DNA from: Diacronema lutheri
Taxonomy: Eukaryota; Haptophyta; Pavlovophyceae; Pavlovales; Pavlovaceae
Direction of reading: 5' to 3'
DNA length: 64,000 nt
Assembly: GCA_019448385.1 (NCBI GenBank)
Contig: JAGTXO010000021.1
Location: forward strand, 124,001 to 188,000
The translations under genes and the position numbers were made by a program. The stretch's first letter is position 1. Every line of letters begins with the position of its first letter. The notes under the pieces are model-generated. The model had not been told where the DNA came from. It did not search any database and saw only the letters and a program-made list of their open reading frames with translations. Shown in pieces: positions 38,264 through 64,000 of this stretch.

Positions 38264-41200
38264 ATGAAGATGAGGCCGACCGCCGCGCTGCTGCTCCTCG
38301 TCATCGCGTGCGGGTCGCGCGCCGCGACGGATCGGTACATAGCTGCGTTTTTTTATGGGCTCGAACTGTCCGACGCCGAGCTCGACGCCGCCCTGCGCGC
38401 CGCGCCCGACGGCGGCGCGAGCGCGAGGCGCCGGTTCGGCTCGGCCTTCTCGGGTCTCGCCGCGCGGCTCGATGGCGACGGCGTAGCTTACTTTGAGGGA
38501 CTGGGCGCGCTCGTCGTGCCCGACGCGCGCGTGCAAGCCGCAGCCGCGCCGCCCAGCTGGGGCATAGACCGGATCGACCAGCTCGACCTGCCACTCTCGC
38601 AGACGGCGTACGCGCCCGCGTACGACGGAAGTGGCGCGTCCGTCTTCGTGATCGACACGGGCATCAACGCGTCGCACGCCGATTTTGCAGGGCGCGTGGG
38701 CGCGGGGTACGACTTTGTCGACGACGACGACGACCCCGCCGACTGCAACGGGCACGGCACGCACTGCGCCGGCACGGCGGCCGGCGCGACCTATGGCGTC
38801 GCGCCCGGCGCAACGGTGCACGCTGTGCGCGTGCTCGAATGCGGCGGCGGCGGCTGGCTGAGCGACACGATTGCCGCGCTGCTATGGGTGGCGGAGCACC
38901 CGGCGGCGCTCAAGATCGCCTCGCTCTCCCTTGGCGGCGCGAAAGACTTCTTGATCGACCGCACGGTCGCGCTCGCCGTCCAGCTCGGCACGACCGTCGT
39001 CGTGGCCGCAGGCAACGCCGGCGCGAGCGCGTGCAACGTATCGCCTGCGGCGGCGCCGGAGGCGATCACGGTGGGCGCGAGCAACATCAGCGACGGTATG
39101 CCCTCGTGGTCCAACTACGGCGCGTGCGTCGACATCCTCGCGCCGGGCGTGGGCATCACGTCCGCATGGGTCGGGTCGGCGACGGCGGCCAAGACGATCA
39201 GCGGCACATCGATGGCGACGCCGCACGTCGCGGGCGTCGCCGCGCAGATTGCTCAACGGCTGGGCGCCGCGCACGCGAGCCCGCGCGCGATTTGGGCGCA
39301 AATGCGCGCCGACGCGGCTGCCGGCCGCCTCACGGGCGACCTGCGCGGCTCGCCAAACTTGCTCGCGCAGAGCGCGGCGCGCACGCCGTTCCCGCCGCCC
39401 ACGCCACCCGCGCCGCCCGCGCCACCGCCATCGCCGCCGTCGCCACCGCCGACCATCTCGGTGGTCGTCACGCCCGACAGCCTGCCGGAGGAGCTGTTTT
39501 GGATGCTCTTCCGGCTGAACGCCACCGGGTACTATACGTACGCAGGGCAGATGGGCGAGGTGGCGGAGCAGCAGGCGTGGGACATTGCGATTGGTGAGTA
39601 TGGCGGCCATTACGCGTGGGCACTCTTTGACCGAGCGGGCGATGGCTTCTGCTGCGAGCACGGGGCGGGCATGCTGCGCGTCTCGGTGAACGGCGACGTG
39701 ATCGCCGAGACAGGCGCATTTTACACGAGCCGATATGTCGTCTTTATTGATTTTTACGCCCCACCGCCACGCCCGCCACCGAGCTCGCCGCCGCCAAGCC
39801 CGCCACGACCGCCGCCGAGCCCGCCGCCAAGCCCGCCGCCGCCAAGCCCGCCGCGAAGTCCGCCGCCACCTAGCGAACCGCCAAGCCCGCCGAGCCGGCC
39901 GCCGAGCCCGCCGCCTAGCCCGCCGCCGCCGCGCCCGCCGTCAAGCCCAGCGAGCCCGCCGCCGAGCCCGCCGCCACCTCGCCAACCGCCAAGTCCGCCG
40001 CCCGGGCCGCCGCCCAGCCCGCCGCCGGGCGTGCCACCGTCTCCGCCAGCAAGCCCTCCGCCGCCCAGTCCGCCGCCCAGCCCGCCGCCGCGCCTGCCGC
40101 CGAGCCCGCCGCCGTCCCCGCCACCGAGCTTGCCGCCGCCCAGCCCACCGTTCAGCCCACCGCCGCCTAGCCTGCCGCCGCGCCCGCCGCCGCCAACCCC
40201 ACCACCGCCAAGCTTGCCGCCCTCGTGGCCGCCGCCGCGCCCGCCGCCACGCCCGCCGCCGCGCCCGCCGCCACGCCCGCCGCCCAGCCCGCCGCCGAGC
40301 CCGCCGCTACGCCCGCCGTCGCCGAGCCCGCCGCCGAGCCCGCCGCCGAGCTCGCCGCCGCCGCGCCCGCCACCGAGCTCACTGCCGCGCCCGCCGCCGC
40401 CGAGCTCGCCGCCGAGCCCGCCGCCACGCCCGCCGCCGAGCCCGCCGCCGCCCAGCCCGCCGCCGAGCCCGCCGCCGCGCCTGCCGCCGAGCCCACCGCC
40501 GCCGAGCCCGCCGCCGAGCCCGCCGCCGAGCCCGCCGCCCAGCCCGCCGCCGCCCAGCCCGCCGCCCAGCCCGCCGCCGCGCCTGCCGCCGAGCCCGCCG
40601 CCGTCCCCGCCACCGAGCTTGCCGCCGCTCAGCCCACCGCTCAGCCCACCGCGGCCTGGCCTGCCGCCCAGCCCGCCGCCTCCGACCCCACCACCGCCAA
40701 GCTTGCCGCCCTCGTCGCCGCCGCCGCGCCCGCCGCCCAGCCCGCCGCCGCGCCCGCCGCCACGCCCGCCGCCATGCCCGCCGCCCAGCCCGCCGCCACG
40801 CCCGCCGCTACGCCCGCCGCCACGCAGCCCGCCGCCGAGCCCGCCGCCGAGCCTGCCGCCCAGTTTGCCGCCACGCCCGCCGCCGCCGAGCCCGCCGCCG
40901 TCTCCGCCACCAAGCCCTCCGCCGCCCAGCCCGCCGCTCAGCCCACCGCCGCCCAGCCTGCCGCCACGCCGCCCGCCGCCGAGCCCGCCGCCGCCGAGCC
41001 CGCCGCCACGCTCGCCGCCGCCGAGCCCGCCGCCGAGCCCGCCGCCGAGCGCGCCGCCGTCTCCGCCGCCAAGCCCCCCGCCGCCCAGCCCGCCGCCCAG
41101 CCTGCCGCCCAGCCCGCCGCCGTTGCGCCCGTCACCGCCGAGCTTGCCGCCCTCAGCGCCGCCGCCAAGCCCGCCGCCGAGCCCGTCGCCGAGCCTGCCG

Positions 41201-43270
41201 CCGCCGAGCCCACCGCCGAGCCCGCCGCCGAGCCCGCTGCCGAACCTGCCGCCGCCCAGCCCGCCGTTCAGCCCATCGCCGCCCAGCCTGCCGCCTAGCC
41301 CGCCGCCGCCGACTCCGCCGCCCTCGGCGCCGCCGCCGCGCCCGCCGCCCAGCCCGCCGCCGCTCCCGCCGCCCAGCCCGCCGCCGCGCCCGCCGCCGCC
41401 GACCCCGCTACCGCCGAGCTTGCCGCCCTCGGCGCCGCCGCTGCGCCCGCCGCCGAGCGTGCCGCCGAGCCTGCCGCCGCCGACCCCATCGCCCTTGGCG
41501 CCGCCGCCGAGCCCGCCACGCAGCCCGCCGCCGAGCGCGCCGCCGAGCCCGCCGCCGCCGAGCCCGCCACCGAGCCCGCCGCCGCGCCTGCCGCCGCGTC
41601 TGCCGCCGAGCCCGCCGCCGAGTTCGCCGCCGAGCCCGCCGCCGCCGAGTTCGCCGCCGAGCCCGCCGCCGCCGAGCCCGCCACCGAGCCCGCCGCCGCC
41701 CAGCCCGCCGCTCAGCCCACCGCCGCCCAGCCCGCCGCTCAGCCCACCGCCGCCCAGCCTGCCGCCCAGCCCGCCGCCGCCGACTCCGCCGCCCTCGGCG
41801 CCGCCGCCGAGCCCGCCGCCGAGCCCGCCGCCGAGCGCGCCACCGAGCCCACCGTTACGCCCGCCGCCACGCCCACCGCCACGCCCGCCGCCGCCGAGCC
41901 CGCCGCCGAGCCTGCCGCCGCCCAGCCCGCCGCCAAGCACGCCGCCGTCCCCGCCACCGCCGCTCAGCCCACCGCTCAGCCCACCGCCGCCCGGCCTGCC
42001 GCCCAGCCCGCCGCCGTCGACGGCTTTGCTGCTCGACGCAACGTTCGAGCTGGGCGTTACGCTCACGAACTTTGGTAACGACGCACAGCGTGACTTTGCC
42101 GCCAGGCTCTCGACGCTGCTCGAGCTGCCGTCCGAGGTGCTCAACGTCTCGGCGGGCTCGGTCGTCGTCGCCGCACGCATCGCTGTGCCACCGACCGGCG
42201 CGGGCGCGCCCACTTCGGACGGCAACGGCGGCGGCGGCGGCGTCGGCGGCACGGCAGACATGTCAAGCGCGCGCGTGCGCGCCGACGCCGCGCTGCTCGT
42301 GCTCGCGACAATGCCCCTCGACGACTTGAGCGTGCGCCTTGCCGTACCCCTGCTCGCACGCCCGGCCGTGCGGCTGGTCGCACCGTCGTCGCCGCCGCCG
42401 CCGCCGCCGCCGCTGCCGGCGCTCGCGCCGCGCGAGCCGCCGCGCGCCGGCGGCGGCGATGGCGGCGGCGGCGGCGACGCGGGCGCCGGCGCATTGGGCG
42501 CGCGCGGCGATGACGCGCTGCCCCAGTCGGGCGCGCCGCTTGCCGCCGACGGCGGCATCGCATTCATCGCGGGCACGGCGACCGGCGCGTGCGTACTGCT
42601 CGCGTTCTGCTCGGCGCTCGGCGGCGCGTGGCTCGTGCGCGGCCGGCGCAAGCGGCGACGCGGCGACAGGTGGGCGGCGGAGCGGCCGCAGCCGCGGCTG
42701 CACCGCGCCGGCGGTGAAGGCGCGCTGCCGGCAGCGCGCGCGCCGCGTGGAGACGACGGCGCCGACCGACGCGGCGCGCACGCGCGGCCCTACGCGCCCG
42801 TGGCCGCGCCGGTTGAGCCGTTCGTCGCGCCGGGCTCGAGCGCGGGCGCTGCATCGCGCCCGCGCTCGCGCACACCGTCGCCCGTGGCATCGACGCCCTT
42901 TGGCGTCGGTGGCCGGCAGCTGGCGGGCCGCGCGGGGTTTGAGGGCGTTCTCGCCATGCCGCAGGGCCCGGAGCTGCCGAGGCATCGCGCCAAGCCGGCG
43001 CCCGCGGCGCTGCGCGCCCGAGGCAACGTGCAGCCGCAGCCGCGCCTGCAGTCGCTGAGGCGCGCGTGCTCGTGGCCGCGCAGCGCGCGCGCCGGCGCGG
43101 AGGTGGGCGCGGTCGTCGGCGCGCGCGCCGTTGAGGCGGGCGCTGCGCACGCGCAAGGCCGGCCGCCGTCTCCGCTCGCGCCGGCGGTCCCGCGGCGCCA
43201 CTCGGCTGGGGATCCCAAGCCGTGGCTTGGCCCCCCGTTGCGTGCCAGACTGCCAGTTGAGTTCCGGTGA
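38264..43270 (+). CDS. Subtilisin-family protease with proline-rich stalk and C-terminal TM anchor
   Basis: A 1,668-residue frame. It begins with a signal peptide (LLLLVIACGSRAA) and an I9-like prosegment. The S8A proteinase-K-type catalytic domain follows, with Asp in VFVIDTGI, His in NGHGTHCAG, the oxyanion Asn in VVAAGNAG and Ser in SGTSMATPH. A Cys-containing beta module (YAWALFDRAGDGFCCEHGAG) is of the kind often appended to algal and bacterial secreted proteases. Then come ~750 residues of SPPP/RPPP/LPPS repeats (39760-42015), a module with ELGVTLTNF and VLNVSAGSVVVAARI, a TM helix (FIAGTATGACVLLAFCSALGG), an RGRRKRRRGDR stop-transfer, and a ~230-residue cytosolic tail. The stalk is a likely target for prolyl hydroxylation and arabinosylation. 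No intron is needed. Confidence 0.9.
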   Translation: MKMRPTAALLLLVIACGSRAATDRYIAAFFYGLELSDAELDAALRAAPDGGASARRRFGSAFSGLAARLDGDGVAYFEGLGALVVPDARVQAAAAPPSWGIDRIDQLDLPLSQTAYAPAYDGSGASVFVIDTGINASHADFAGRVGAGYDFVDDDDDPADCNGHGTHCAGTAAGATYGVAPGATVHAVRVLECGGGGWLSDTIAALLWVAEHPAALKIASLSLGGAKDFLIDRTVALAVQLGTTVVVAAGNAGASACNVSPAAAPEAITVGASNISDGMPSWSNYGACVDILAPGVGITSAWVGSATAAKTISGTSMATPHVAGVAAQIAQRLGAAHASPRAIWAQMRADAAAGRLTGDLRGSPNLLAQSAARTPFPPPTPPAPPAPPPSPPSPPPTISVVVTPDSLPEELFWMLFRLNATGYYTYAGQMGEVAEQQAWDIAIGEYGGHYAWALFDRAGDGFCCEHGAGMLRVSVNGDVIAETGAFYTSRYVVFIDFYAPPPRPPPSSPPPSPPRPPPSPPPSPPPPSPPRSPPPPSEPPSPPSRPPSPPPSPPPPRPPSSPASPPPSPPPPRQPPSPPPGPPPSPPPGVPPSPPASPPPPSPPPSPPPRLPPSPPPSPPPSLPPPSPPFSPPPPSLPPRPPPPTPPPPSLPPSWPPPRPPPRPPPRPPPRPPPSPPPSPPLRPPSPSPPPSPPPSSPPPRPPPSSLPRPPPPSSPPSPPPRPPPSPPPPSPPPSPPPRLPPSPPPPSPPPSPPPSPPPSPPPPSPPPSPPPRLPPSPPPSPPPSLPPLSPPLSPPRPGLPPSPPPPTPPPPSLPPSSPPPRPPPSPPPRPPPRPPPCPPPSPPPRPPLRPPPRSPPPSPPPSLPPSLPPRPPPPSPPPSPPPSPPPPSPPLSPPPPSLPPRRPPPSPPPPSPPPRSPPPSPPPSPPPSAPPSPPPSPPPPSPPPSLPPSPPPLRPSPPSLPPSAPPPSPPPSPSPSLPPPSPPPSPPPSPLPNLPPPSPPFSPSPPSLPPSPPPPTPPPSAPPPRPPPSPPPLPPPSPPPRPPPPTPLPPSLPPSAPPLRPPPSVPPSLPPPTPSPLAPPPSPPRSPPPSAPPSPPPPSPPPSPPPRLPPRLPPSPPPSSPPSPPPPSSPPSPPPPSPPPSPPPPSPPLSPPPPSPPLSPPPPSLPPSPPPPTPPPSAPPPSPPPSPPPSAPPSPPLRPPPRPPPRPPPPSPPPSLPPPSPPPSTPPSPPPPLSPPLSPPPPGLPPSPPPSTALLLDATFELGVTLTNFGNDAQRDFAARLSTLLELPSEVLNVSAGSVVVAARIAVPPTGAGAPTSDGNGGGGGVGGTADMSSARVRADAALLVLATMPLDDLSVRLAVPLLARPAVRLVAPSSPPPPPPPLPALAPREPPRAGGGDGGGGGDAGAGALGARGDDALPQSGAPLAADGGIAFIAGTATGACVLLAFCSALGGAWLVRGRRKRRRGDRWAAERPQPRLHRAGGEGALPAARAPRGDDGADRRGAHARPYAPVAAPVEPFVAPGSSAGAASRPRSRTPSPVASTPFGVGGRQLAGRAGFEGVLAMPQGPELPRHRAKPAPAALRARGNVQPQPRLQSLRRACSWPRSARAGAEVGAVVGARAVEAGAAHAQGRPPSPLAPAVPRRHSAGDPKPWLGPPLRARLPVEFR
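39760..42015 (+). repeat. Degenerate (S)Pn coding repeat
   Basis: About 2.25 kb built from ccgccgagc/ccgccgccc-type codons encode the stalk of the subtilase. Larger imperfect units recur (for example blocks containing LPPLSPPLSPP or SPPPSLPPPSPP), indicating repeated internal duplication. Because CCG codons read as stop-free Arg/Ala/Gly codons in the other frames, the region produces several long false ORFs on both strands. Confidence 0.92.
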
Positions 43271-51630: not shown

Positions 51631-51862
51631 GCGGGAGGGAAGGGAAGGGGGGGGGGGGGGGATAAAAGGGAAGGGGGGGGAGGGGGGGGGGGGGGGGGGG
51701 GGGAGCTGGTCCGCCCGACTGCGCTAAAAGCTGCAGTCTGAGATCGTCGCTCCCGCGGGTCCCCTGCTGCACGACTGTGCGCTGCGGCCTGCGCGGTGAG
51801 CGGAGCGGGCGCGCGAGGATTTTCCCCCATTAATTTTTTATAAGTTTTTCCCCAATTTTCGA

Positions 51863-53385
51863 ATGCCGCCGTCGTCAACATTGGCTCGCAGGCGGGAGAA
51901 CAAGGTGCTCGAGCTGCTGCGCCTGCTCTTCACCTCTGTGCGGCACACGTCGGTGTTCGACGTTGCGCAGAAGCTCGCGCTCGTCTTTGCTGCCGTGCAC
52001 CTGGTCAGTTTTGTTCGCTCGCGCCCGTGGGTCGCCAAGCATCGGCTGCCGTCCGATGTGCAGGCGCTCCTCGCGAACGCGAGCCGCGAGCCGCCAGATA
52101 GCGAGCTCTTCCCGCAGTACTTCCCTAGCCCGTCGACGGGCCTTTGGCTGTACAGCCGCCAGTGGCTGCCGCCTGCGCCCGCGCGCGGCATCATCTTCGT
52201 CGTGCCCGGCATGGGCGAGCACACCGGACGGTTAGCGCGCTAACGCGCGCGGGCGCTGCGTCCGCGCTGTGCGCTGCGCGCTGCGCGCTGAGCGCGCGAC
52301 AGCCGATCGCTGCGCCGCGCGCGCAGGTGCGCGTGTGTTGATACGCGCGGCCGCCACGGTCGCGCTGCGCTGACCGCGCGGCCGCCACGCGAGCAGATAT
52401 GAATTCCTTGCGGCCTCGATGACCAGGCTTGGCCTCGCCGTCTTTTCGCTCGACCACCAAGGCCACGGCGCGTCCGAGGGGGACCGCGTGCACGTGGAGC
52501 GCTTCTCCGACTACGTGTCGGACCTGACCGGCTTCGTCTCGCACGTGCTCGGCAGTCGGCCTGAGTGCGCGCTCTGCCCGTTGTCCCTGCCTGATCACTC
52601 AAGCCGGTCGTTCTCACACGCCGTGTCCACCCGCGCCGTTACGCGGAGCGCCCCTGTCCGCACCGCACGCCCTCCGACCCCGTGCGCTCCCACGCACGCC
52701 TTCGCCGCTCCCACGCACCCATTCATTCTTCATTGTTTAGGTACGCTCGGCTTCCGCGCTTCCTGTTCGGCCATTCGCTTGGCGGCGCCATTTCTATCCT
52801 GACCGCGAACGCGACGACTGCATCCGCCGCCATCGCCACAGACCGCGCCGCGCCGCTTGCCGCGCCCGCCCTCACATGGAGCGGCGTCATTCTCTCGGCG
52901 CCAGCCATCGTGCCCGACCCCAAGGCACGCGCGTGCTCCTCGGCGGCCGCGCGGCGGCAGCGCCGTGTGCCCCGCGCGCGCCGCACGGCGTGCCCCGCGC
53001 GCGCCGCACTTCGCTCTGCACGGCACGCCGCGCGGCCACCGACGCGAGTTGCGCACGTGACCGTTACGCCCGTGGCCACGTGCCAGCGCTCGTCCGCGGG
53101 CCAGTGCGCGCCGTGCCTGTTCCCGCCACCGCGACGCGGCACTTCCTGTTTCCGCCGTGCCTGTTCCCGCCACCGTGACGCGGCACAGCCGCACACATGA
53201 GTGTGGCACACCTCTGCGCGCCATCTGGCCGCGTGCAGGTGAAGACGCCGCTCAAGGTCTTCATCGGCAAGGCGCTCGCGTCGGTGCTGCCCAAGTTTGC
53301 GCTCGCGCCGCTCCCAGCCTCAGGCATCTCCACCAACCCGCAGGTGCGGCGCGCGCGCGCGGTCTCGCAGAAGCGCTCCGCATCG

Positions 53386-53421
<36 letters not shown>

Positions 53422-53924
53422 CATACCCGCGGCGAACCGGCACGGCGCGCTGCGCGCTGCGGCGCGCGCTGTCCGAGCTGCGCGCGCCGGCCCGCGGTCG
53501 TCGGCACGCACGCGGCGTAACGGCACGCGGCGTAACGGCACGCGGCGTAACGGCACGCGGCGTAACGGTCGAGCAGGTGCACAACTTGTACCGCACCGAC
53601 CCACTCATATACCACGGCGGCGTGCGCGTGCGGTGGGGCTTCGAGACGCTCAAAGCGCTCGGCGCGATCCACGCGACGGTCGAGACGGTCGCCTTCCCGT
53701 TCCTCATCATGCACGGCATGGACGACTCGATCGTCTCGCCCGCCGGCTCGATCGACTTCCATCGGCGCGCCGCGTCACGCGACAAGACGATCAAGACGTA
53801 CGACGGCCTCAAGCACGAGATCCTGAACGAGCCGCGCGAGGCGCGCCACCGCGTCATCGCGGACATCTCGGCGTGGATCGAGGCACGGGTGGGTGGAGGG
53901 ACCGAGCCGCCGCTCGCCGAATAG
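51863..53924 (+). CDS. Monoglyceride-lipase-like alpha/beta hydrolase
   Basis: Five exons (51863-52230, 52397-52564, 52741-52924, 53239-53343, 53577-53924) join in phase to 390 residues. An N-terminal hydrophobic segment near residues 30-50 could anchor it to membrane. The hydrolase core has VPGMGEHTGRY, LDHQGHGASEG, nucleophile FLFGHSLGGA, Asp in MHGMDDSIVSPAG and His in YDGLKHEIL. These are all hallmarks of the monoacylglycerol lipase/lysophospholipase family, which releases fatty acid and glycerol from monoacylglycerol. Intron 3 begins GC. Intron 4 carries a 37-nt sense C run and four copies of a 15-bp repeat. Confidence 0.9.
53509..53568 (+). repeat. Four copies of a 15-bp tandem repeat in an intron
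   Basis: The unit cacgcggcgtaacgg is repeated four times without change, ending 8 nt before the 3' splice site of intron 4 of the lipase gene. Confidence 0.95.
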
Positions 53925-54453
53925 CGCAGCGGGGGGCTAGGGGGGGGGGGGGGGGGGGGGGGCAGTCTCGGCGGACGAGTCAGCACTCAGCAGTCCGCCC
54001 ACACGATCAAAACCGTTGACATTGAAAAACAAGGCCGCCGTTTCAAGTTTAGATGGTCAAGCCAAATCCGATCAGGGGCACGGTCGAGCGCCCCGAGTGC
54101 AGCGCGGGCCATTCGGAAGGACGTCCTTGTGAGGGAGCTCTTCGCGTTTGGCGAGCGGGGGAGCACGACGCGCAGCGTTGCTGCGGCGGCGTGCGGGCGG
54201 CGAGCAGCGGTCGGGCTGCTCGCGACGAGGCCGGAGCAGACGGCGCCGTGGCCGCCGGCGCAGGTGACGCGCGCCGACGAGCCGTAGCAAGCGTCCGTGA
54301 TCCGCTCGGCGGTTGGAGCGGGCCGGCTGGTGCGGCGCGCTCGGCCACGGGCGGCGGCGTGCACGGGCGTGCCGCGCGCGGCACGCGTCGCCAGCCGCGC
54401 GCGACCTGGGCGGAACCCGCAAAGCGTCGACCGCTGCGTGGCTCGGCCGTGCG
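53925..54453. other. Spacer between lipase and Fanzor gene; candidate element end
   Basis: It contains a 22-nt G run (53941-53962), an AT-richer island at 53990-54070 (gttgacattgaaaaacaagg) and GC-rich sequence up to the Fanzor stop. No family match appears in any frame. Fanzor guide (omega) RNAs are usually transcribed from the 3' end of the gene and adjacent non-coding DNA, so this is where one would look. I cannot identify terminal inverted repeats by eye. Confidence 0.4.
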
Positions 54454-57178
54454 TCAACGCCGGCCGCGCTTCGGCCCGCGCGCGCTGCCGCCGCCGGCAC
54501 TGGCGCTGGCAGCTCCGCGGGCGGGGGTGCGGGCGCGAGAGCCGCCGCCGCAACCGCCGCCGCGCCCACCGCCGTCGTCGCCACCGCCGTCGCCGCCGCC
54601 GCCTCCCCCGCCGTCATCGTCGTCGTCGCCGCCGCCGCCTCCGTCGCCGTCGCCGTCACCGTCGCCCTCCTCGCCGCCGCCGTCGCCGCTGCCGTTTTCG
54701 TCGTCGTCGTCGCCGCCCTCGTCGTCGCCCTCGTCGTCGCCGTCGCCCTCGTCGTCGCAGTCGTCGCCCTCGCCGTGCACCATGCGCTCCTCGCGCTCCC
54801 ACACCTCGCCGCGCGCCCACCAGGCGAGCACGAGGGCAAAGCGCTCAGGCGTCGACGTGGTGTCGCGCCCGGCCGCGTGCGCCGCAATGTCGTGCACGTC
54901 GTAGAAGATGTTGCGCGCGGCGTTGTAGTCGCGGTGCACGGGCTTCTTGCCGCCGTTGCACGCCGGGCAGATGACGAGCGCGTGCACCGTGCGCGTGCCG
55001 CCCTTTGCCACGGGCAGGCGCGGGTTCTGCGCGAGCTCCGCGCCGCAGCGCTGCAGCCTGCCGCCCTTGGCGAGCCGCGGCATCGAGCAGTGCATCGACG
55101 TGTACGGCTCGGGCACGAAGACGGCCGCGACGCCGCGCCGCCGCAGCTCGCGCAGCAGCCCCACCTGGAAGGCGGGCGGCGCGCCCTTGGGCTGCGCGCC
55201 CTTGTGGTCGTGCAGCCACTTGCCCACGCACACGAGCAGCCGGTCGCGCGTCACGCCGTCGACGCAGTGCGCCGCGATGAGCGCCTCGGCGACGCGCGCC
55301 GCGTTGGACCGCCCGCCGCTGTCGCGCCGCCAGCGCACCTTGCGGCGCGCCGGCGCGTCGTACACGTGCTCGGCGGCGCGCTCGCGCACCCGCGCGCTCT
55401 CGCGGTGGAAGGCGAGGAACTCGCCCTCGCCGAGCACCTTGGCGCTGTGCGCCTCGCCAAGCCGCGCCTCGTCCGCCTCCACGCTGAACTCCTCGCCGCG
55501 CCCGTCGGTGCGCACGCGCCGCCGCGCCGCGTTGGTCTTGGCCGTCTCGCGCGCAAAGCCCGCGGCGCGCGCGCGCGCGCGCTGCGTGAACTGCCGCCAG
55601 ACGGCCGCCCGCCCGACGTGCGCAGAGTAGGTGGTGATGTTGCCCATGTTCGGGTCGGCCGCGACGACGACCGCCTCCTCGACGTCGATCGCCCGCCGCA
55701 GCTCGGAGCCGAGCGCGACGGCGATGCGCCCGTCCGGCCGGCGCCAGCGGTGCAGGACGCTCGAGCTGCCGGCCGGCGCCTGCGCCTTCGGCACGAGGAC
55801 GGTCCCGACGGCGTGCACGGCGACGCCATCCGTCACCACCGACTTGACGGGCTGCCGGCCCGGGAGCGGCACGCGCGGCAGCGGCGCGAGGCCAACCCAC
55901 GAGCGCCGCGCGTGCCACGGCAGATCGGCCGGCGGCCGCTCGCGCCCGGCGTAGTCGAAGACGCGGTTGGAGATGTCGAAGCACGTCGCGAAGACCGCGT
56001 ACCTGACGCGCACGTCCGACATCGGCGGGGTGAGGCCGTTTGTGCCTGTCCACTTGATCGGCTCGCCATCGTGGTCGCGCAGGTCCAGCGCCTTGAGCCG
56101 CGCGCGCAGCTCCTTGCGCTCGTCGTCCGGGAGCGTCTCCCAGATGGCGTTCGCGGTGAGGCGCACGTTGCGCGGCACCTGCGCGCAGCGCGCGGCGCGC
56201 GAGCGCGCGGGCGCGTGACCAACCTGGCCGCGGGGCGGCGCGCACGGCGGCGGCGCGCGCGCTTGGGCGCTCGGCGGCGGCAGCGGCAGCCGCGCCTCGC
56301 GCGCACATTGTGCGTGCGCAGCGGCGCCACATTGTACCGCGGCGGCCGGTCGGTGAGCTGCGTGTACAGGCGCGCAAGCCGGCAGAGCAGCGCCTGCCCT
56401 TCGGCCACGTGCTGCAGGTTGCGGATCTGCACGAGGAAGTAGCGCGTCGTGTGCCGGTCGTAGTTCCACCTTTTCGTGGGCGCGCACCCGTAGTCGATCT
56501 TGTGGAGGACCATGTCGGGCAGGTGGCGGTCGAGCGCGGCGGGGCAGCCGACGCGCGCGCCCTGCACGTCGCCGCGCAGCAGCCGCTCGCACAGCTCGCG
56601 CACGCGCGCGTTTCGCTGCATCTCGGGCAGCGCGACGAGCGCCTCGTCGCGCTCGACTGCCGCGCGGACGACGTCGCGGAGCAGCCCGTTCACGACGCGC
56701 GATGGGTGCATCAGGCACGCGGTGGACACCTGCGTCGCCTCCTCCTCGAGGATGCTCGCGAGGCCCACCGCGCAGACGCGCTGGACGCCCTCGGCCATCT
56801 CGCCGACGGCGCGCGCCGTCGCCGCCTTGGTCTGCGCGCCGGCTTGCTCGGCGGGCTTGCCTCGGGGCGCTGCACCGTACGTGCTCTCGTCCTTGTGCCA
56901 GCCGATGGCCGAGAAGATCGCAAGGACGGTTCCCTTGTCCATCGTGGTCGACGTGTGCACGCTGGTCGACGGGCCGCCCGACGCCGCGCCGGCGGCCTGC
57001 GCGCTCGCCACCGCAGCCTCGTCGCGCACCACCTTGTTGATGACGCGGTACGCCTGTGTCGTGAGCCTGTGCACGGCCGCCGCGATGCGCCGCAGCTCCT
57101 TCCGCGCACCGGGCTGCGCCGTCACCGCCTGCGGCCCCGCGTTGAGCGTCGAGCGCTTAACCACGAAGCCCGGGAGCG
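54454..57178 (-). CDS. Fanzor (eukaryotic TnpB-like) RNA-guided nuclease region
   Basis: Two exons (57178-56307 and 56178-54454) flank a 128-nt GTGCGCG...GCGCAG intron. The N-terminal part is helical (RIAAAVHRLTTQAYRVINKV) with the typical KRWNYDRHTTRYF stretch. The RuvC-like nuclease follows: Asp in VVVAADPNMGN (RuvC-I, about 55650), Glu in VFVPEPYTSMHC (RuvC-II, about 55110), Cys pairs of a zinc ribbon including ICPACNGG, and Asp in VHRDYNAARNIF (RuvC-III, about 54925). The triad therefore looks intact. The tail is acidic, then Gly-rich. Fanzor proteins are omega-RNA-guided DNA endonucleases carried by eukaryotic transposons. The upstream chromodomain frame joins this one in phase through a 145-nt intron (57323-57179), so it is probably the C-terminal part of a larger protein. 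Confidence 0.85.
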
Positions 57179-57323
57179 CTGCCGCGCGTGCGCGCCGTCG
57201 CGCCGCCGGCGGCGCGCGCGCTCGGCGCAGCGGGCTCGTCCACGCGCGCGCGCTCGACGCCGCGCGCGCGGGGAACGCTCGGCGCGCGCGCGCCCGCGGC
57301 GTCGCGCGCGCTCGCGGCTGCAC

Positions 57324-60300
57324 CCGCCACGGCGCGCTTGCCCGCGGCGCCCGACACGCCGTGCGCGCGAAGCGGCGCCGACGCCAATGCCGACGCCGCG
57401 CCCGCGCCGCCGCTGCCGCTGCCCGATCCGCCCGCGCGCCGCTTCTGCTCGTCGCGCGTCTTGCGGAACTGGGCGACGAGGTCGCTGCTCACGTTGGCCT
57501 CAGGCTCCCACGTGTCGGCGCTCTCGTCGTAGCCCCGCCACCTGATCCGGAACTCGAACGTCACCTTCTTGCCCGCCTTGCGGCGCTCGTCGACGACCGC
57601 CTCGACCTCGTACGTGCGCGCCTCCTCGTCGACGCTCGCGCCCGCCGCGCTCGCGCCCGTGTCCGGCCACCCAGCGACCGTGCCGCCCAGCCTCTCGGCG
57701 GCCGCGCGCAGCTGCCGCTCGCGCTGGGCGGCCGCGGCGCCTCGCGCGACCAGCGCGGGCAGCATGCCCGCGCCGCCCGCGAGGCCGTGCGCGCCGACGC
57801 TGGCGGTCATCAGCGCGTCGAGGCACGCGAACGTTGCGAGCGCACGCGCGCCATCGTCGCCGCCGCGCGGCTGCGAGCGCACGACGGGCGATGGCCGCGG
57901 CTCCCCCTCGGCCGCGAGCAGCGGCCAGATCGCATTGGCCAGCGCGACGGCATGCGTGCCGACCGCGACGGCCACGTCCGCGTCGAGCGGCGCAAAGTCG
58001 TAGCGCACGAGCGCGGCCGGGCGCGAGTCGTCCGTCGGCCGGTCGGCGACGAGCAGCCCGACCGGGCGCGGCGGCTCGTCGGACGGCGCGGCGACGGGCA
58101 CGCAGAGGAGCACGACGAGCAGGCGCGGCGTGCCGCCGAGCAGCGCGCGCGCGGCATCCGCCCCGTCGGCTCCGCCGCGCGCGGCCGCGGCGAGCAGCTC
58201 GGCCGCGCGCGTCGGGCCCAGCGCCGTGCGCGCGTCCTTGCGCGCGCGTGCGCGCGCCGTGTACGCGGCGCAGGCGTCGTCGAGCACCGCCGCGCTGGGC
58301 GCGGTGCCAGTCGTCGCCCACACACGCAGCGCGTCGCGCACCCGCGTGACGATCGCCTGGTCGACTGCCGCCTCGCCGGCAGCGTGCGCCGGCGCGCACG
58401 CCGGCGGTGCGGCGGCAGGCGCGAGCGCGGGCGCGCCGTCGGCGCCGTCAACGCCGACGGCGCCGTCGGCGCGCCGCCACGCGAGCTTCGCCTCGATCTG
58501 CTGCCGGACGGCGTGGCAGTGCCGGTCGATGCCGCGCGCGTCGTCGAGCGCGGCCAGCGCGTCCTCAGCGGCGGGACGGCCGCTCGCGTCCGCGACGGCC
58601 TGCAGGCAGAGCAGCGCGGCCGCACGCGCGTTGCACGCGCTCTGCGGCTCGGGCGCGAGCGCGAGCTCGAGCTCGAGCGGCGACGCGCCTCGCGCCGCGG
58701 CGATCGCGTCCATCAGCACGTCCAACCGCTGCACCCCACGAGCCCGAGCGCGCGCGCCGGCGCGCCCGCCGGCGTGTGCAGCACGAGCAGCGCCGCGCCC
58801 GCCAAGCTCGCGTTGCGCGTGACGAGCGCGAAGATGCGCGTCGCCTCGTGCGCGCCCACCGACGCCCAGATCGCAGCGCGATCGGTGTCCGTCTGCGCGT
58901 CGCACAGGTCGCGCACGTCGTCCGGCGCGAGCAGCGCGCCGCCGCCGGCGGAGCGCGCGACGATCGCCCGCGCCTCCGCCACGAAGACGGCCTGCGGCAG
59001 GTCGGCGTGGCGCGCGTCGACGATGGCGCGCGTCGCGTGCACACCGAGCTCCACGCCGCGGTAGAAGGCGCGCGCGTTGGCCGCGCGCGCGTGCGCCGGC
59101 CGGCCGTCCACGTTGCGCCTCGCGCGCGCCTGCTTGCTCGTGCGCGCGAGGCCGTCGCGTGGCGGTGGCGGCAGCGTGGCGAGGAAGCGCGCGGCGGGCG
59201 GCGGCGCGCGCACGCCGCGCTGCCGCCGTGCGATGGCCGCGAGCCGCCGGCCCGCCGCGCTGCCGCCCGCGCCGACGTGCTGCCAGCGGTTGAGCGCCGC
59301 CGGTGGCGGCGGCGGCGGCGGCGCGGCGGCGGGCGGCGGCGCGGCGGCGGGCGGCGGCGCGACGGCGGGCGGCGGCGCGGCGGCGGGCGGCGGCGCGGCG
59401 GTGGGCGGCGGCGCGGCGGCGGGCGGCAGCGGCGGCGGCGCGGCGGCGACGGCAGCACCAGTCGGCTTGTCCGCCCACGCACCCGAGACGCTGTCCCAGG
59501 CCTTGCCCGGTGGCGCGCGCCCACGCGGCCGCGGGTGGCGGGCTCGAGCGGCGGGGGGCGGGCGGCCGGCGCGCCAGTCGAAGACAGGTGCAACCGTGGC
59601 GGCAGGCGCCGAGTGCCGCGCGTCGGTCACAGAGCGCGTGGTGCGCGCGGCGACCGTGGCGCGCATGGCGGGCGGGCGGTGAGCAGCGCCCGCCGGCGCG
59701 CCGGCGGGCGCGGCAGCCGGCGCGCCGGCGGGCGCGGCCGCCTCGAGCCCGGCGGAGGCGCCGCGCTTGCGCTTGCGCGTGCCGCCGCGCGTGCGCCTGC
59801 GCGCGCGCCCGCCGCGCGCCCGTTCGGCCTGCGCGTCGCCAGCCGCGTCGCCGGCCGCGTCGCCGCGCCGCACGTAGACGACCGCGAACACCTCCTCGCC
59901 GGTCCCGTCGACGCCGCCGCGCGCGCGGCGCAGGACCGACCGCCACTGCAGCCGCCGCGCGCGGCCGGGCTCGCACGCAAACCAGCGCCCACCGCGCCTG
60001 ACGACGGCCACAAAGTCGTCGTCGCGCCGCCCGCGCCGGCGCGTGCGCAGCAGCACGCACTGCACGTCGAGCCAGCCCTCGTGCCAGTCGGCCGTGCTGG
60101 GGGCGACGCGAATCGACTGCGGGAGCTCGACGCCAAAGCCGGCGAGCCGCACGATGTGCGCGACGATGACGCTCGAAATGGCGGGGGCGCTCGACGGGTC
60201 GCCCGCTGCAGCGAGCACCGCCCCGCCCCAGTGCTCACGCGTGACGCAATCCGCGTCCTCGACGTGCACGTGCGCCACGCTCGCGCCGAGCTGGTGCAGC

Positions 60301-63300
60301 AACGCGCAGATGTCGGCGTCGACCGTCCTCTCCTCCTCGGCCGCCTCGGCCGTGCCGCGGGCGGCGGCGTCGCCCGCCGGCTGCCCGAGGTACGCGATCG
60401 CCCGCTCGACGGCCGCGCGCTCCGCACGCGCTGCGCTGTCGATCGCCGCATTGCCGACGGGCGCGCGCAGCGCCGCGATCGCGTCTTGCAACGCCGTCGC
60501 GTCGCCCGTCGCCGCCGTCGCCGCCACCGCCGCCGCGCTCGCGGTGCCGTGCGCGACGGCGTGCAGCGCGGCGGCGCGCGCGGCGGGGATGCGCCCGTCC
60601 AGCGCGAGCACGAGCGGCGGCCCGGCCGGCGTCTGCTGCCGCCGGTGCCGCCGGCTCGCAGCCGGGTGGTCGGCGCGCGCGCGCTCGAGCCGCGCGCGCC
60701 GCTCGACGACGCGCGCCCAGAAGGCCTGCACCCTCGGCTGCGCGAATGCAAGCCAGCCGGCGCCGCGCGTCACGACGTGCACGACGATCCGGTCCTCGTG
60801 CCTGAGGTACTGCACGTAGAGCGCTTTGCTCACGCCGAGGACGTGCATGCCGAGCTGCAGCTGATCGCGGTGCGGCTGCGGCGGCCCGTCCTCGTGCGCC
60901 GTGGCGCCCGCCTTGGTGAGCGTCTTCACCTCGACGAGGACCTGCTCGTTGTTTTCGGGGAGGATGGCGAGCCCGTCCGGCGAGAAGGCGAACGGCGCGC
61001 TCTTGTCGTGCGGGTCCGCACGCACCATCGGCAGGTTGCACACGACGGTGATGCCGTACGCGGCCGCCAGCTTGCGCAGCGCGACGGCCTCGCCGAGGAT
61101 GCCCGCGGTCGTCGCCTTGGTCCGCACCTCGCGCCGCCGCCGGTGCACGTACTCGTCGGTGAGCGTTTCGTGCGCGACGCCGGCGTTGTCGTTCACGACG
61201 TCGCCAACCTTGCTGCCCGTGACCTCCTCCCATCGCTCGTCGTGCCAGCGCGGGCTGCGCTGCGCGGGCGCGCCCGCGCCGACGGCGTCGAGCACGCGGC
61301 GCAGCGCTGTGCCGTCGGGCGCAGCAGGCACGCGCGCGCGGTCCTGGGCCTCGCGAGCGTCGAGGACGCAGCCCGTAGTGGAATGTTGGGGTAGGTCGAG
61401 CTTGCTCGCCTCGCCGTAGCGGCTCTCCAGCTGGCGCGGTGCGTCGGCAGGGCCGCCGTCCGTGCGCGCACCCGACGCGCCCGCCAGTGCACGGGGCGCA
61501 GCGTCCGGGGCGCCCGCCGCGCCCGCGCCGCCGCCAATCGCGCCAGCGCACGCGCGCGCCGCGACCTGCGGACGGCCAGCCGCAGGGACCTCGTCCGCTC
61601 GGCCGGCCGCTGCGTCGGCCGTCCGCTTGGCCACCTCGCGCACGTCTCCGAGCGCGAGCGTGGCTGGCGCCGTCCAGCTCCCGTTGCGTTTGTCCCAAAA
61701 TTTGAGCAGCCCGCCAAGGAAGGGCGTGCCCGTCGGGCGGTCCTCGGGCACCTCCGCCAGGATCGCGTCGACGCGCAGCGCGGCCGCCACATCGCAAAAC
61801 GCGCGCGCGGCGCGCGCCATCCGCTCGGCGCGCGCGCCGCCGTCGTCCGCCGCGCGGCGGATGGCGTGGCTCACGTGCGCGACGCGGAGCGAGACGACGG
61901 CGTGCGCCGGCGCGTCGGCGCCCGTGCCGAGCGTGTGCCGCCGGATGGCCAGCTGCCCATCGCCCATGCGCGGCGGCAGCGACGCGCACGCCGCGACGGT
62001 CGTCGTGCCGGCCGCGCTGTCGCACAGCCAGCTCGCCTCGCCGCCGCCCGCAAACTCAAAGGTCGTTAAGCCCTTGCGGCCGAAAAGCGCGACGAAGTGG
62101 TCGAGCACCGCCTTGTTGATCGCGCGCGCCGCCGGCCGCGTCGATGCGCCGCGGGCAGCGCCACCCGCCGCGCCGCGCGCATCGCTGCACGTCGCAGGGC
62201 AGGTGCAGCCGGACGCGCGCACGCCGTCCGACCGCGTCCGCGGCAGCTCGAGCTCGCGCACCTTGGGGCAGAACCAGAGCGGGTTGGACGCCTCGAGGCA
62301 CAGCACGACGAGCCGCCCGTCCGTGCCGGCCAGCGCGCGCGCGTCGCGCAGCAGCTCGACGGCGAGCTCGGACGTCGCCGCGTGCACCGCCGGCTCGCCC
62401 GTCGCGCGGTCGGGCGGGAAGAGGCCGCCGCCGACGAGCGGGCTGGGGCAGCGGCCGAGCATCACGAGCAGCGGCGGCGGCGGCGTCTGCGGCGCCTGCT
62501 GCCCGACCGCAGCCGCCGTCAGCCCGGCCAGGTCGGAGCTCGTGCGGAGGGCCTTGAGCGCGACGCGCGAGCCGGTGCCCGCCTGCTCGGAAAACGTGGC
62601 GAGCATGGCGCACGTGCTCGCCCTCGCGCCGCACTGCCAGCTGACGCGCGCGAGGAGGCCTTCCAGCGTGTCGTTTTCGCGCGGCCGCGTGACCGCGTCG
62701 AGCGCCGCCGGGCCGAGCTGGAGGCTGCCGGGCGTGACGCACAGCACCGCCTCGTGGTAGGCGCGCAGCAGCTCCCTCGGCAGCTGCTCGGCGGGCGTCG
62801 CCGCCTGCCCGCCCACCCACCGTGCACCGTGGCCGCCGTCGCCCGCGCCCGCGAGCCGCACCGCCGGCCCGCCCGTGATCGCCGAGGTCGGCGGCGTGCC
62901 GAGCGCGTCGACGAGCGCGCGCACGGGCGCGACACGCCTGCGCGCAGCGTCCGCGCCGACGGCGAGCGCGGCGATCTGAGCGCCCTCCCATGCGCGCTCC
63001 CTCGCGTCGTCCCGCGCGGCCGCCGGCGCGGCGCCCGGCCGCGCGCCGTGCGGCACCGCGCACGCCGCCGCGACGACCTCCGCGCGCGCGCCGGCGGCGT
63101 CGGGCGCGTGCAGCTGCGCGAGCGCGCCAAAGAGCGCGGCGGCCGAGCGGTAGCGGCCGTGCGCCGCGACGAGCGCGTAGAGCACGCGCAGCGCGGCCAC
63201 GCCCGCCTGGTCGGGCGCGTCGCCAGCGATTTGCTCGACCTCCCACGTGCGCGTGGGCGGCGGGCTGCCGTCGGCCGGGTCCGGACGCAGCGCCCACGCG

Positions 63301-64000
63301 CGCTCGACGATCGCGTTGAACACGCCGTGCGCGGCGCCCTCGTCAAACTCGGCGGCGCCCGCCGCGTGCGCGCACCACCCGTGCACGCGCGACGTGGGCG
63401 CATCCACGGCGCGCTGCACGACGAGCACCGCCGGCCGGTCGACGCAGCCGAGGCTCACCGCCGCGTGCTTGCCCTCGAGCAGCGCCGCCGCCGCAGCCTC
63501 GACCAAGGCGTCATCAGGCGCGTCGCCGACGACGACGGCACAGCCGTCGTCGTACTCGGCCTGCATCGCGGCGACGCACGACGCGACAAAGTCGCCGCCC
63601 GCGGCCGCCGCGTGTCGCGCCGCCAGCATCCGGCGCGCGATGGCAAGCCAGACGTACTCGGCCGGCGCGCGCGCGGCGCGCGCGCGAGGCGCGCCGGCCG
63701 CGCCGCGTGCACCAGCGCGTGCGCCTCCAGCGGCCGCAACGGCCGAGGCGGCTGGAGCGGGGGTGAGCGTGCGCCGCGCGCGCTTCGCCGGCCGCGTGAT
63801 GGGCGATGCACCCGCCATCGCACCGCCCGCAGCAGCCGGTGCGGCCGCCACAGCGCCCGCCGCAACGCCACTCGTCACGACGCCCGTGGCGGGCGGCGCG
63901 GCGTCGGACGCGGCCGCGTCGACGGGCGTCGCGCAACTACCGCCAGCGGTCGCGGACGCGCCCGGCGACGCGTCGGCGAGGAGGTGGCGCAGCACGCCGC
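57324..64000 (-). CDS. YqaJ/lambda-exonuclease-type nuclease plus chromodomain, N-terminal part of the Fanzor fusion (5' end outside window)
   Basis: Exon A (open to the window edge, ends 58785) and exon B (58728-57324) are separated by a 56-nt GTGCTG...GTGCAG intron. Exon A has ~900 residues of unknown sequence. Next comes a PD-(D/E)XK nuclease (about 61270-60740): GILGEAVALRKL, FSPDGLA, LVEVKTL and the Gln-containing QLQLGMHVLGV, the motif order of YqaJ/lambda exonuclease. An Ala/Pro-rich linker (59290-59450) follows. Exon B ends with a canonical chromodomain (about 57616-57452): YEVEAVVD, FRIRWRGYDESADTWEPEANV, with the three cage aromatics present. At least 2,200 residues precede the Fanzor part. 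Strand-processing and chromatin-targeting roles are inferred from the domains. Confidence 0.7.

Follow-up and report, generated by a model that had tools for sequence, protein, structure and literature searches.

A damaged copy, shortened at its 5' side, of a giant Helitron-like element with a predicted exonuclease-chromodomain-Fanzor protein in the haptophyte Diacronema lutheri

Fanzor proteins are RNA-guided nucleases, exonucleases of the YqaJ/lambda type resect DNA ends and chromodomains bind methylated histone tails. A stretch of the genome of the haptophyte alga Diacronema lutheri raises the question of whether these three can be joined in one protein, and in what kind of genetic unit such a protein would reside. 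The stretch, called the window here, consists of 64,000 nucleotides (nt) of contig JAGTXO010000021.1 of assembly GCA_019448385.1 (C88:124001-188000 in our numbering of the contigs). A first-pass annotation, made from the letters of the window, had joined four open blocks on the minus strand through three introns into a single protein, and had suggested that this protein would be a self-contained mobility or homing machine. The four blocks are present and, when joined as proposed, give 3,071 codons open to the window edge, the first block being 5,216 nt long to that edge and not 5,211 nt. The window contains a mobile element in a damaged copy that is shortened at its 5' side. On balance we favour the reading that this element is a giant one of more than 26 kb, Helitron-like and recently amplified, with a fused exonuclease-chromodomain-Fanzor protein, the working proposed below being included in that judgement.

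The copy in the window is the 3' part of the element and is read on the minus strand, as recognized by similarity to its sister copies, from about position 54052 to the edge at 64000 and on to C88:195361, where the similarity to other copies stops; because the match ends there, this copy is without the upstream genes of the element. The range of 54454..64000 first assigned to the coding unit was thus too narrow, since the 3' end, the continuation to C88:195361 and the length of other copies (more than 26 kb) all lie outside it, and the extension that had been anticipated past the right edge of the window is real. Over long pieces, its identity to the copies on C71, C29, C82, C6, C1, C26, C91 and C99 amounts to 96.8-98.8%.

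The assembly searched comprises 43,492,796 bases in 103 contigs. The exact 25-mer at the 3' end of the element occurs 217 times in it, and an exact 25-mer about 16.87 kb upstream, which serves here as the upstream marker, occurs 174 times; 3' ends are therefore overabundant, 217 against 174 overall, and 5'-shortened copies are present as in the Helitron2 elements that carry Fanzor1. On contigs C1-C42, for which both lists are complete, 65 of the 98 exact 3' ends have an upstream marker on the same strand at 16.8-18.4 kb, 33 have no exact marker and 19 of the 84 markers have no exact 3' end, although in such exact matching the loss of an end and a point change look alike. A piece of the chromodomain region gave at least 82 matches, namely the window and 81 others, with 98-99% protein identity. 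In similarity scoring, which for each query was confined to the 40 best among several hundred candidates and counted the query copy in, a 709-nt stretch at the upstream marker was 100% identical over its full length in 40 places (43 matches listed, best 40 of 247 candidates), and because of this identity the element is considered to have been recently active or amplified. Further upstream, the stretch 18.5-20 kb from the 3' end, taken from the C6 copy, is common to 40 of 40 scored places, the stretch at 20-23 kb to 40 long places at 98-100% (37 of them spanning the whole query, best 40) and the stretch at 23-26.5 kb again to 40 of 40. Since these stretches are common to many copies, the element is longer than 26 kb; it was followed upstream to C6:26500, and its 5' end lies beyond that. 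Copies throughout the genome repeat the combination of exonuclease, chromodomain and Fanzor, which is therefore not a chance one; the element may make up about 5-10% of the genome, a figure that is an estimate and not a measurement. The genome paper of D. lutheri NIVA-4/92 puts the repeat content at 22.9%, and its main text nowhere uses the word stem "transpos" (PMC8379373).

A joined frame that remains open might also be that of a host gene with three introns. This explanation, to which we give next to no credence, is ruled out by the dispersed copies, which number well over 100, and two of its three introns coincide with deletions found only in the window copy. This became apparent in an alignment of the window with 29 sister copies (L003-L031), which are the best-scoring of the 81 others and not a random sample. 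The interval 58784-58729, annotated as the first intron, contains the site of a 55-bp deletion (58736, minus strand), and the interval 57323-57179, annotated as the second, has a 2-bp deletion site at its edge (57178..57179, minus strand); the 55 bp and both of the two bases are present in all 29 sisters. The two deletions therefore account for the frame breaks in the window copy that the earlier gene model had bridged with introns 1 and 2, so that of the three introns only the one at 56306-56179 has survived, as a probably real one. The first interval has a coding composition in sister L031 (guanine + cytosine (G+C) by codon position 0.84/0.70/1.00), and the composition of the second is ambiguous (0.88/0.84/0.94).

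In intact copies, one frame of about 4,500 codons runs without a break through a RecE/YqaJ-like exonuclease, the chromodomain and the N-terminal half of a Fanzor-like protein, in this order. Around the chromodomain, 63 of the 82 listed copies, the window included, are open for 4,000 codons or more, and stops far upstream in the giant frame occur in two of the 29 aligned copies, L004 and L006. The Fanzor-like N-terminal half (56307..57178, minus strand) was assigned by frame and composition in the aligned copies and lies in the chromodomain frame in the intact ones. In 28 of the 29 aligned sisters the frame that starts out in the chromodomain stays open, free of stops, until this half ends, the exception being L029 with a 1-nt insertion. 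The same 28 copies have no Met from codon 821, before the chromodomain, to codons 1089-1096, about 70 residues into the Fanzor half, and this Met-less stretch has a coding composition of 0.69/0.59/0.96. We consider it likely that exonuclease, chromodomain and Fanzor form a single polypeptide of about 5,000 amino acids (aa) as predicted, and the three would then be encoded on one mRNA. The part of the annotation that saw one polypeptide at work in a mobility machine is supported by the 28 continuous frames, by the high copy number of the element and by its Helitron-type helicase; the protein is not self-contained, because the coding sequence of that helicase lies in another part of the element.

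The same element could instead produce the exonuclease-chromodomain part and the Fanzor as separate proteins, by alternative splicing, by an internal translation start or by cleavage of a polyprotein through cysteine-protease-like proteins of the element, and the nucleases would then act independently. Consistent with this are the Ala-, Arg-, Pro- and Gly-rich linker between chromodomain and Fanzor and a ubiquitin-hydrolase-like protein encoded upstream (PF00443 20.3 bits, under the cut-off of 23.9). In addition, the second interval starts with GT and ends with AG in intact copies, where its 145 nt of the window plus the two deleted ones make a multiple of three; both of the first two intervals are multiples of three in L031, and optional splicing is therefore possible. 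However, the 28 copies that are stop-free up to the end of the Fanzor half have no Met at which a separate Fanzor could begin until some 70 residues into it, and the coding composition of the Met-less stretch likewise argues for the fusion, so that separate proteins appear unlikely.

The single polypeptide would be continued across the third interval (56179..56306, minus strand), which begins with GTGCGC and ends with GCGCAG. It is called an intron because it is found in all aligned copies with GT...AG ends, non-coding composition and a variable length. It measures 128 nt in the window and in 24 of the 29 copies, 130 nt in four and 129 nt in one; the frames on both sides are preserved in three of these five variants (L003, L018 and L030), and the remaining two, L009 and L029, have further insertions of 1 nt. 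Its G+C by codon position, 0.81/0.91/0.88, is unlike that of the Fanzor halves on its two sides (0.72/0.51/0.94 and 0.75/0.54/0.94). Ribosomal frameshifting at this last junction was considered and is unlikely with an interval of 128, 129 or 130 nt between copies; the length varies by 2 nt and an intron therefore fits better than a frameshift site. The interval is thus probably a real intron which joins the N-terminal half of the Fanzor to its RuvC half.

The last exon (54454..56178, minus strand) encodes, according to profile and motifs, a Fanzor/TnpB-type RuvC half of 574 aa followed by a stop, with an acidic C-terminal tail. It contains a Cas12f1-like TNB domain, that is, a zinc finger with the last RuvC Asp (54907..55146, minus strand), whose PF07282 score exceeds the threshold with 27.5 bits against a cut-off of 26.3, and rises to 31.3 bits in many other copies of the element; for the RuvC half as a whole, protein identity to five further copies is 95-97%. 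The signature D-X(125,275)-[TS][TS]-X-X-C4-X(5,50)-RD is represented by D175, T360-S361, the four cysteines and RD417, with a spacing of 185 between D and TS, and a search for this signature found it in six of seven copies examined, the C91 copy giving no match. The C4 zinc finger has a first pair of the form C-x13-C owing to an insertion. A displaced Glu precedes the zinc finger by exactly six residues (E357-PYTSMH-C), as in Fanzors, and a TDG motif (VVTDGV), seen by eye upstream of RuvC-I, corresponds to that of the Fanzor1 wedge domain. The published signatures are the motif spacing of Fanzor and TnpB (PMC3627910) and the displaced Glu, the TDG wedge motif and a RuvC-I that is "near exclusively" DPG (PMC10711439); SpuFz1 coordinates metal through D383 and N385 (PMC10432273).

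Fanzors have been captured by many types of transposons (PMC3627910), and the Fanzor of this element might therefore be a captured passenger that mainly serves its own spread or the restriction of the host genome, with exonuclease and chromodomain serving the element otherwise, in recombination or in chromatin escape. The presence of further Fanzor-type sequences in the genome fits such a history, but the N-terminal half stands in the chromodomain frame in 28 of 29 aligned copies and those copies that were compared have the Fanzor together with the remainder of the element. We regard a mere passenger as rather unlikely, if slightly less so than separate proteins, and retain the fused protein. 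The further sequences amount to 21 other places with PF07282 at 39.5-44.5 bits, for example C11:803083-803310 and C1:154701-154928, and 13 of them share one score, 43.9 bits. By these profile scores the genome contains at least one further Fanzor/TnpB-type family, with TNB scores above that of the giant element and also repeated.

The chromodomain (57460..57612, minus strand) is matched by PF00385 with an E-value of 1.5e-12 and 47.6 bits, well above the cut-off of 25.1 and in agreement with the annotation; its best solved relative is CDYL (2dnt, 4.7e-11), and HP1 structures were also matched. The YqaJ/RecE-like exonuclease domain (60837..61247, minus strand) matches the phage RecE-like family phrog_434 with 1.1e-15 in the window and with 3.1e-16 to 8.5e-16 in four other copies, and because this match is significant the domain call is regarded as sound. 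The region contains, by eye, the motif SPDG...VEVK, a candidate for the active site of a PD-(D/E)XK nuclease. NCBIfam TIGR03033 gives 25.2 bits here, well under its cut-off of 68.05, and searches of the sequences in the Protein Data Bank (PDB) with the exonuclease stretch and with the N-terminal part of the giant open reading frame (ORF) gave nothing useful.

To which class of elements, then, does this unit belong? In fuller copies a PIF1/Helraiser-type helicase comes first and the ubiquitin-hydrolase-like protein second; these are followed by an ORF some 1,340 codons long, by the giant ORF of about 4,500 codons and by the RuvC half of the Fanzor. The helicase matches PF05970 (PIF1) with 2e-24 and PF21530 (Pif1 2B) with 3.1e-13, and its best match in the PDB is Helraiser (7lcc, 6e-26), followed by cellular Pif1 with 8.4e-7; it is thus predicted to be a PIF1-type superfamily 1 (SF1) helicase of the RepHel lineage, such as defines Helitrons. 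Helraiser itself is not known to carry accessory nucleases. The 3,490-nt segment which bears the helicase, and also the ubiquitin-hydrolase-like protein, is 100% identical (rounded) in all 40 scored places (best 40 of 1,307 candidates), and it starts 6,077-6,132 bp upstream of the marker in 19 of 20 scored places on C1-C42. The next ORF, of 1,345 codons, has no Pfam match; short stretches of it (L042:5298-9332) and of the giant ORF (L032:1223-10000) resemble Ulp1-type cysteine proteases in their motifs, although Pfam reports no such match.

YqaJ exonucleases occur with giant viruses and with PHIS/ISL2EU transposons. Chromodomains, for their part, occur in elements with long terminal repeats (LTR) (PMC6338049). 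An endogenous virus, an LTR chromovirus or a transposon with terminal inverted repeats (TIR) must hence be weighed in place of a Helitron relative. For none of the 84 upstream markers on C1-C42, however, does the 25-mer of the 3' end recur on either strand in the next 20 kb upstream, and the five that have it at 26-38 kb have it at no fixed distance, which makes LTR and TIR elements less likely; Pfam detected neither reverse transcriptase nor integrase nor capsid in about 21 kb of coding frames of the element, and the helicase is closest to Helraiser. A giant-virus origin was rejected after pattern-based searches, which detect close relatives only, found no relatives of three pieces of the element in viral contigs, nor of one piece in genome contigs. 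Such origins are consequently held to be very improbable, and the element is, with little doubt, Helitron-like.

The 3' end of the element reads ...GACCATCTA and is followed by TAC in 10 of the 12 full flanks read and by AAC and ACG in the other two. Between the stop codon and this end lies a non-coding tail of about 400 nt (54052..54453, minus strand, delimited by the distance from stop to end), which is the expected place of a Fanzor guide RNA; the distance is 400-403 nt in six of seven copies examined. A palindrome GGGGC...GCCCC, read by eye about 22 nt from the conserved end (54075..54094, minus strand), is a candidate 3' subterminal hairpin. Contigs C1, C5, C6, C10 and C12 start, and C3, C15 and C33 end, within a few bases of the element's 3' end. 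These are probably assembly breaks at a long repeat and not a sign of a (sub)telomeric position, because other contigs, such as C7, stop inside the 5' side of the element.

A number of results weigh against the reading preferred here. As to the class of element, no HUH Rep was found in the element as covered to C6:26500, and PF14214 has one place genome-wide, on C63; the 3' end is CATCTA, then usually TAC, in place of the canonical CTRR of Helitron1. Because the Rep is unproven and the end is not CTRR, the element is named Helitron-like and not Helitron1. Its 5' end, and hence its target site and flanking duplications, is outside the sequence covered. As to the protein, PF09588, the YqaJ profile which the annotation had expected above threshold, stays below its cut-off of 22 in all six long frames scanned (window 16.4 bits, C29 17.3, C82 16.5, C6 16.5, C1 16.4, C71 piece 20.6), and passes it only for an isolated 138-aa stretch of C71 (27.7 bits; with 28.2 bits the sole match at E of 0.001 or less among 150 scored candidates). 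RuvC-I is DPN and not the DPG of Fanzors, PDB sequence searches with the RuvC half matched no solved Fanzor, and single-sequence structure models were uninformative both for the RuvC half (predicted local distance difference test (pLDDT) 38) and for the exonuclease region with the part upstream of it (pLDDT 35). As to the tail, its RNA fold in the C71 copy is not significant (z -0.73), and the DNA fold of the palindrome region of that copy is no better than shuffles (z -0.17). Finally, rough ratios of non-synonymous to synonymous substitution (dN/dS) among the 29 copies are 0.86, 1.07 and 0.55 in three exon stretches, and those between the window and one copy are 0.91-1.43; differences between copies are few, so dN/dS tells neither for nor against selection on the fusion, which is not demonstrated by it. 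The sole match to PF14214 (Helitron Rep) in the genome lies at C63:35738-36019 (8.3e-23).

How a giant Helitron-like element with such a protein might work can be outlined as follows. In rolling-circle transposition, a RepHel-type protein would peel off one strand and paste it at another site. With an RNA from the 3' end of the element that runs into the flank as its guide, the Fanzor part would cut the vacated or the sister site, the attached exonuclease would resect the break so made, and repair on a homologous copy would thereby restore the element at that site. The chromodomain may tether the protein to marked chromatin in which copies of the element lie. Guide RNA, cutting, resection and chromatin targeting are all conjectural steps here, and this cut-resect-copy scheme, as the simplest function that the joined parts could share, is offered tentatively. 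Somewhat more doubtful still is the fullest version, in which an autonomous rolling-circle transposon would carry its own guided break-and-resect copier in a single protein, with the chromodomain retaining the complex at chromatin rich in copies of the element.

Which role Fanzors play in eukaryotic transposons is an open question. Fanzors of group 1 in Helitrons, including algal ones with 3'-overabundance, have already been described (PMC3627910), and one proposal is that Fanzor promotes single-strand transposons by cutting the sister chromosome (PMC10432273). The present family, whose near-identical copies reside in a small alga kept in culture and whose Fanzor appears to be joined to a recombination exonuclease and a chromatin reader and to travel with a Helitron-type helicase, provides a natural test of the proposal that guided cutting helps such transposons to persist. 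In addition, the element shows what size Helitron-like elements can reach, and the fusion of a guided cutter with a resection enzyme makes it interesting for homology-directed editing.

Outside the element, the window contains pieces of a gene at 51800-53924 on the plus strand which end about 130 bp from the 3' end of the element and which resemble an alpha/beta-hydrolase. Positions 40001-42000 have a G+C of 0.868 and a GC skew of -0.354 and lie inside overlapping long open frames.

Among known systems, a literature search that left most subscription journals, preprints and Repbase outside found no publication on YqaJ together with Fanzor or with Helitrons, and no Fanzor-chromodomain fusion is described in the portions of text examined, while a Helitron with a chromodomain may be described elsewhere. 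As in the autonomous Helitron Helraiser/Helibat, which provides the nearest solved helicase, a 3' subterminal palindrome is present; unlike Helraiser, which ends with 5'-TC and CTAG-3', the element ends with CATCTA, its Rep is unseen and it is far larger (PMC4778049). Helitrons and Helentrons with the deubiquitinases OTU and VTD are likewise rolling-circle elements with a ubiquitin-protease-like passenger, whereas here the profile is that of UCH, below its cut-off, and exonuclease, chromodomain and Fanzor are added (PMC9741609). SpuFz1 and other Fanzor1 proteins share the signature residues, the D-x-N form of the first Asp motif and the displaced Glu with the protein predicted here (PMC10432273, PMC10711439), but SpuFz1 is a stand-alone single ORF and the Fanzor of D. 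lutheri is the C-terminus of a predicted fusion of about 5,000 aa with a C-x13-C first zinc pair. The Helitron2 elements CRe-1, CRe-2 and CRe-3 of Chlamydomonas (Bao and Jurka 2013, PMC3627910) are, like the present one, algal rolling-circle elements which carry an intron-containing Fanzor1 and have left many 5'-shortened copies with intact 3' ends. They are described as non-autonomous, however, whereas the element of D. lutheri encodes a helicase, exceeds 26 kb and has its Fanzor fused, as predicted, to an exonuclease and a chromodomain.

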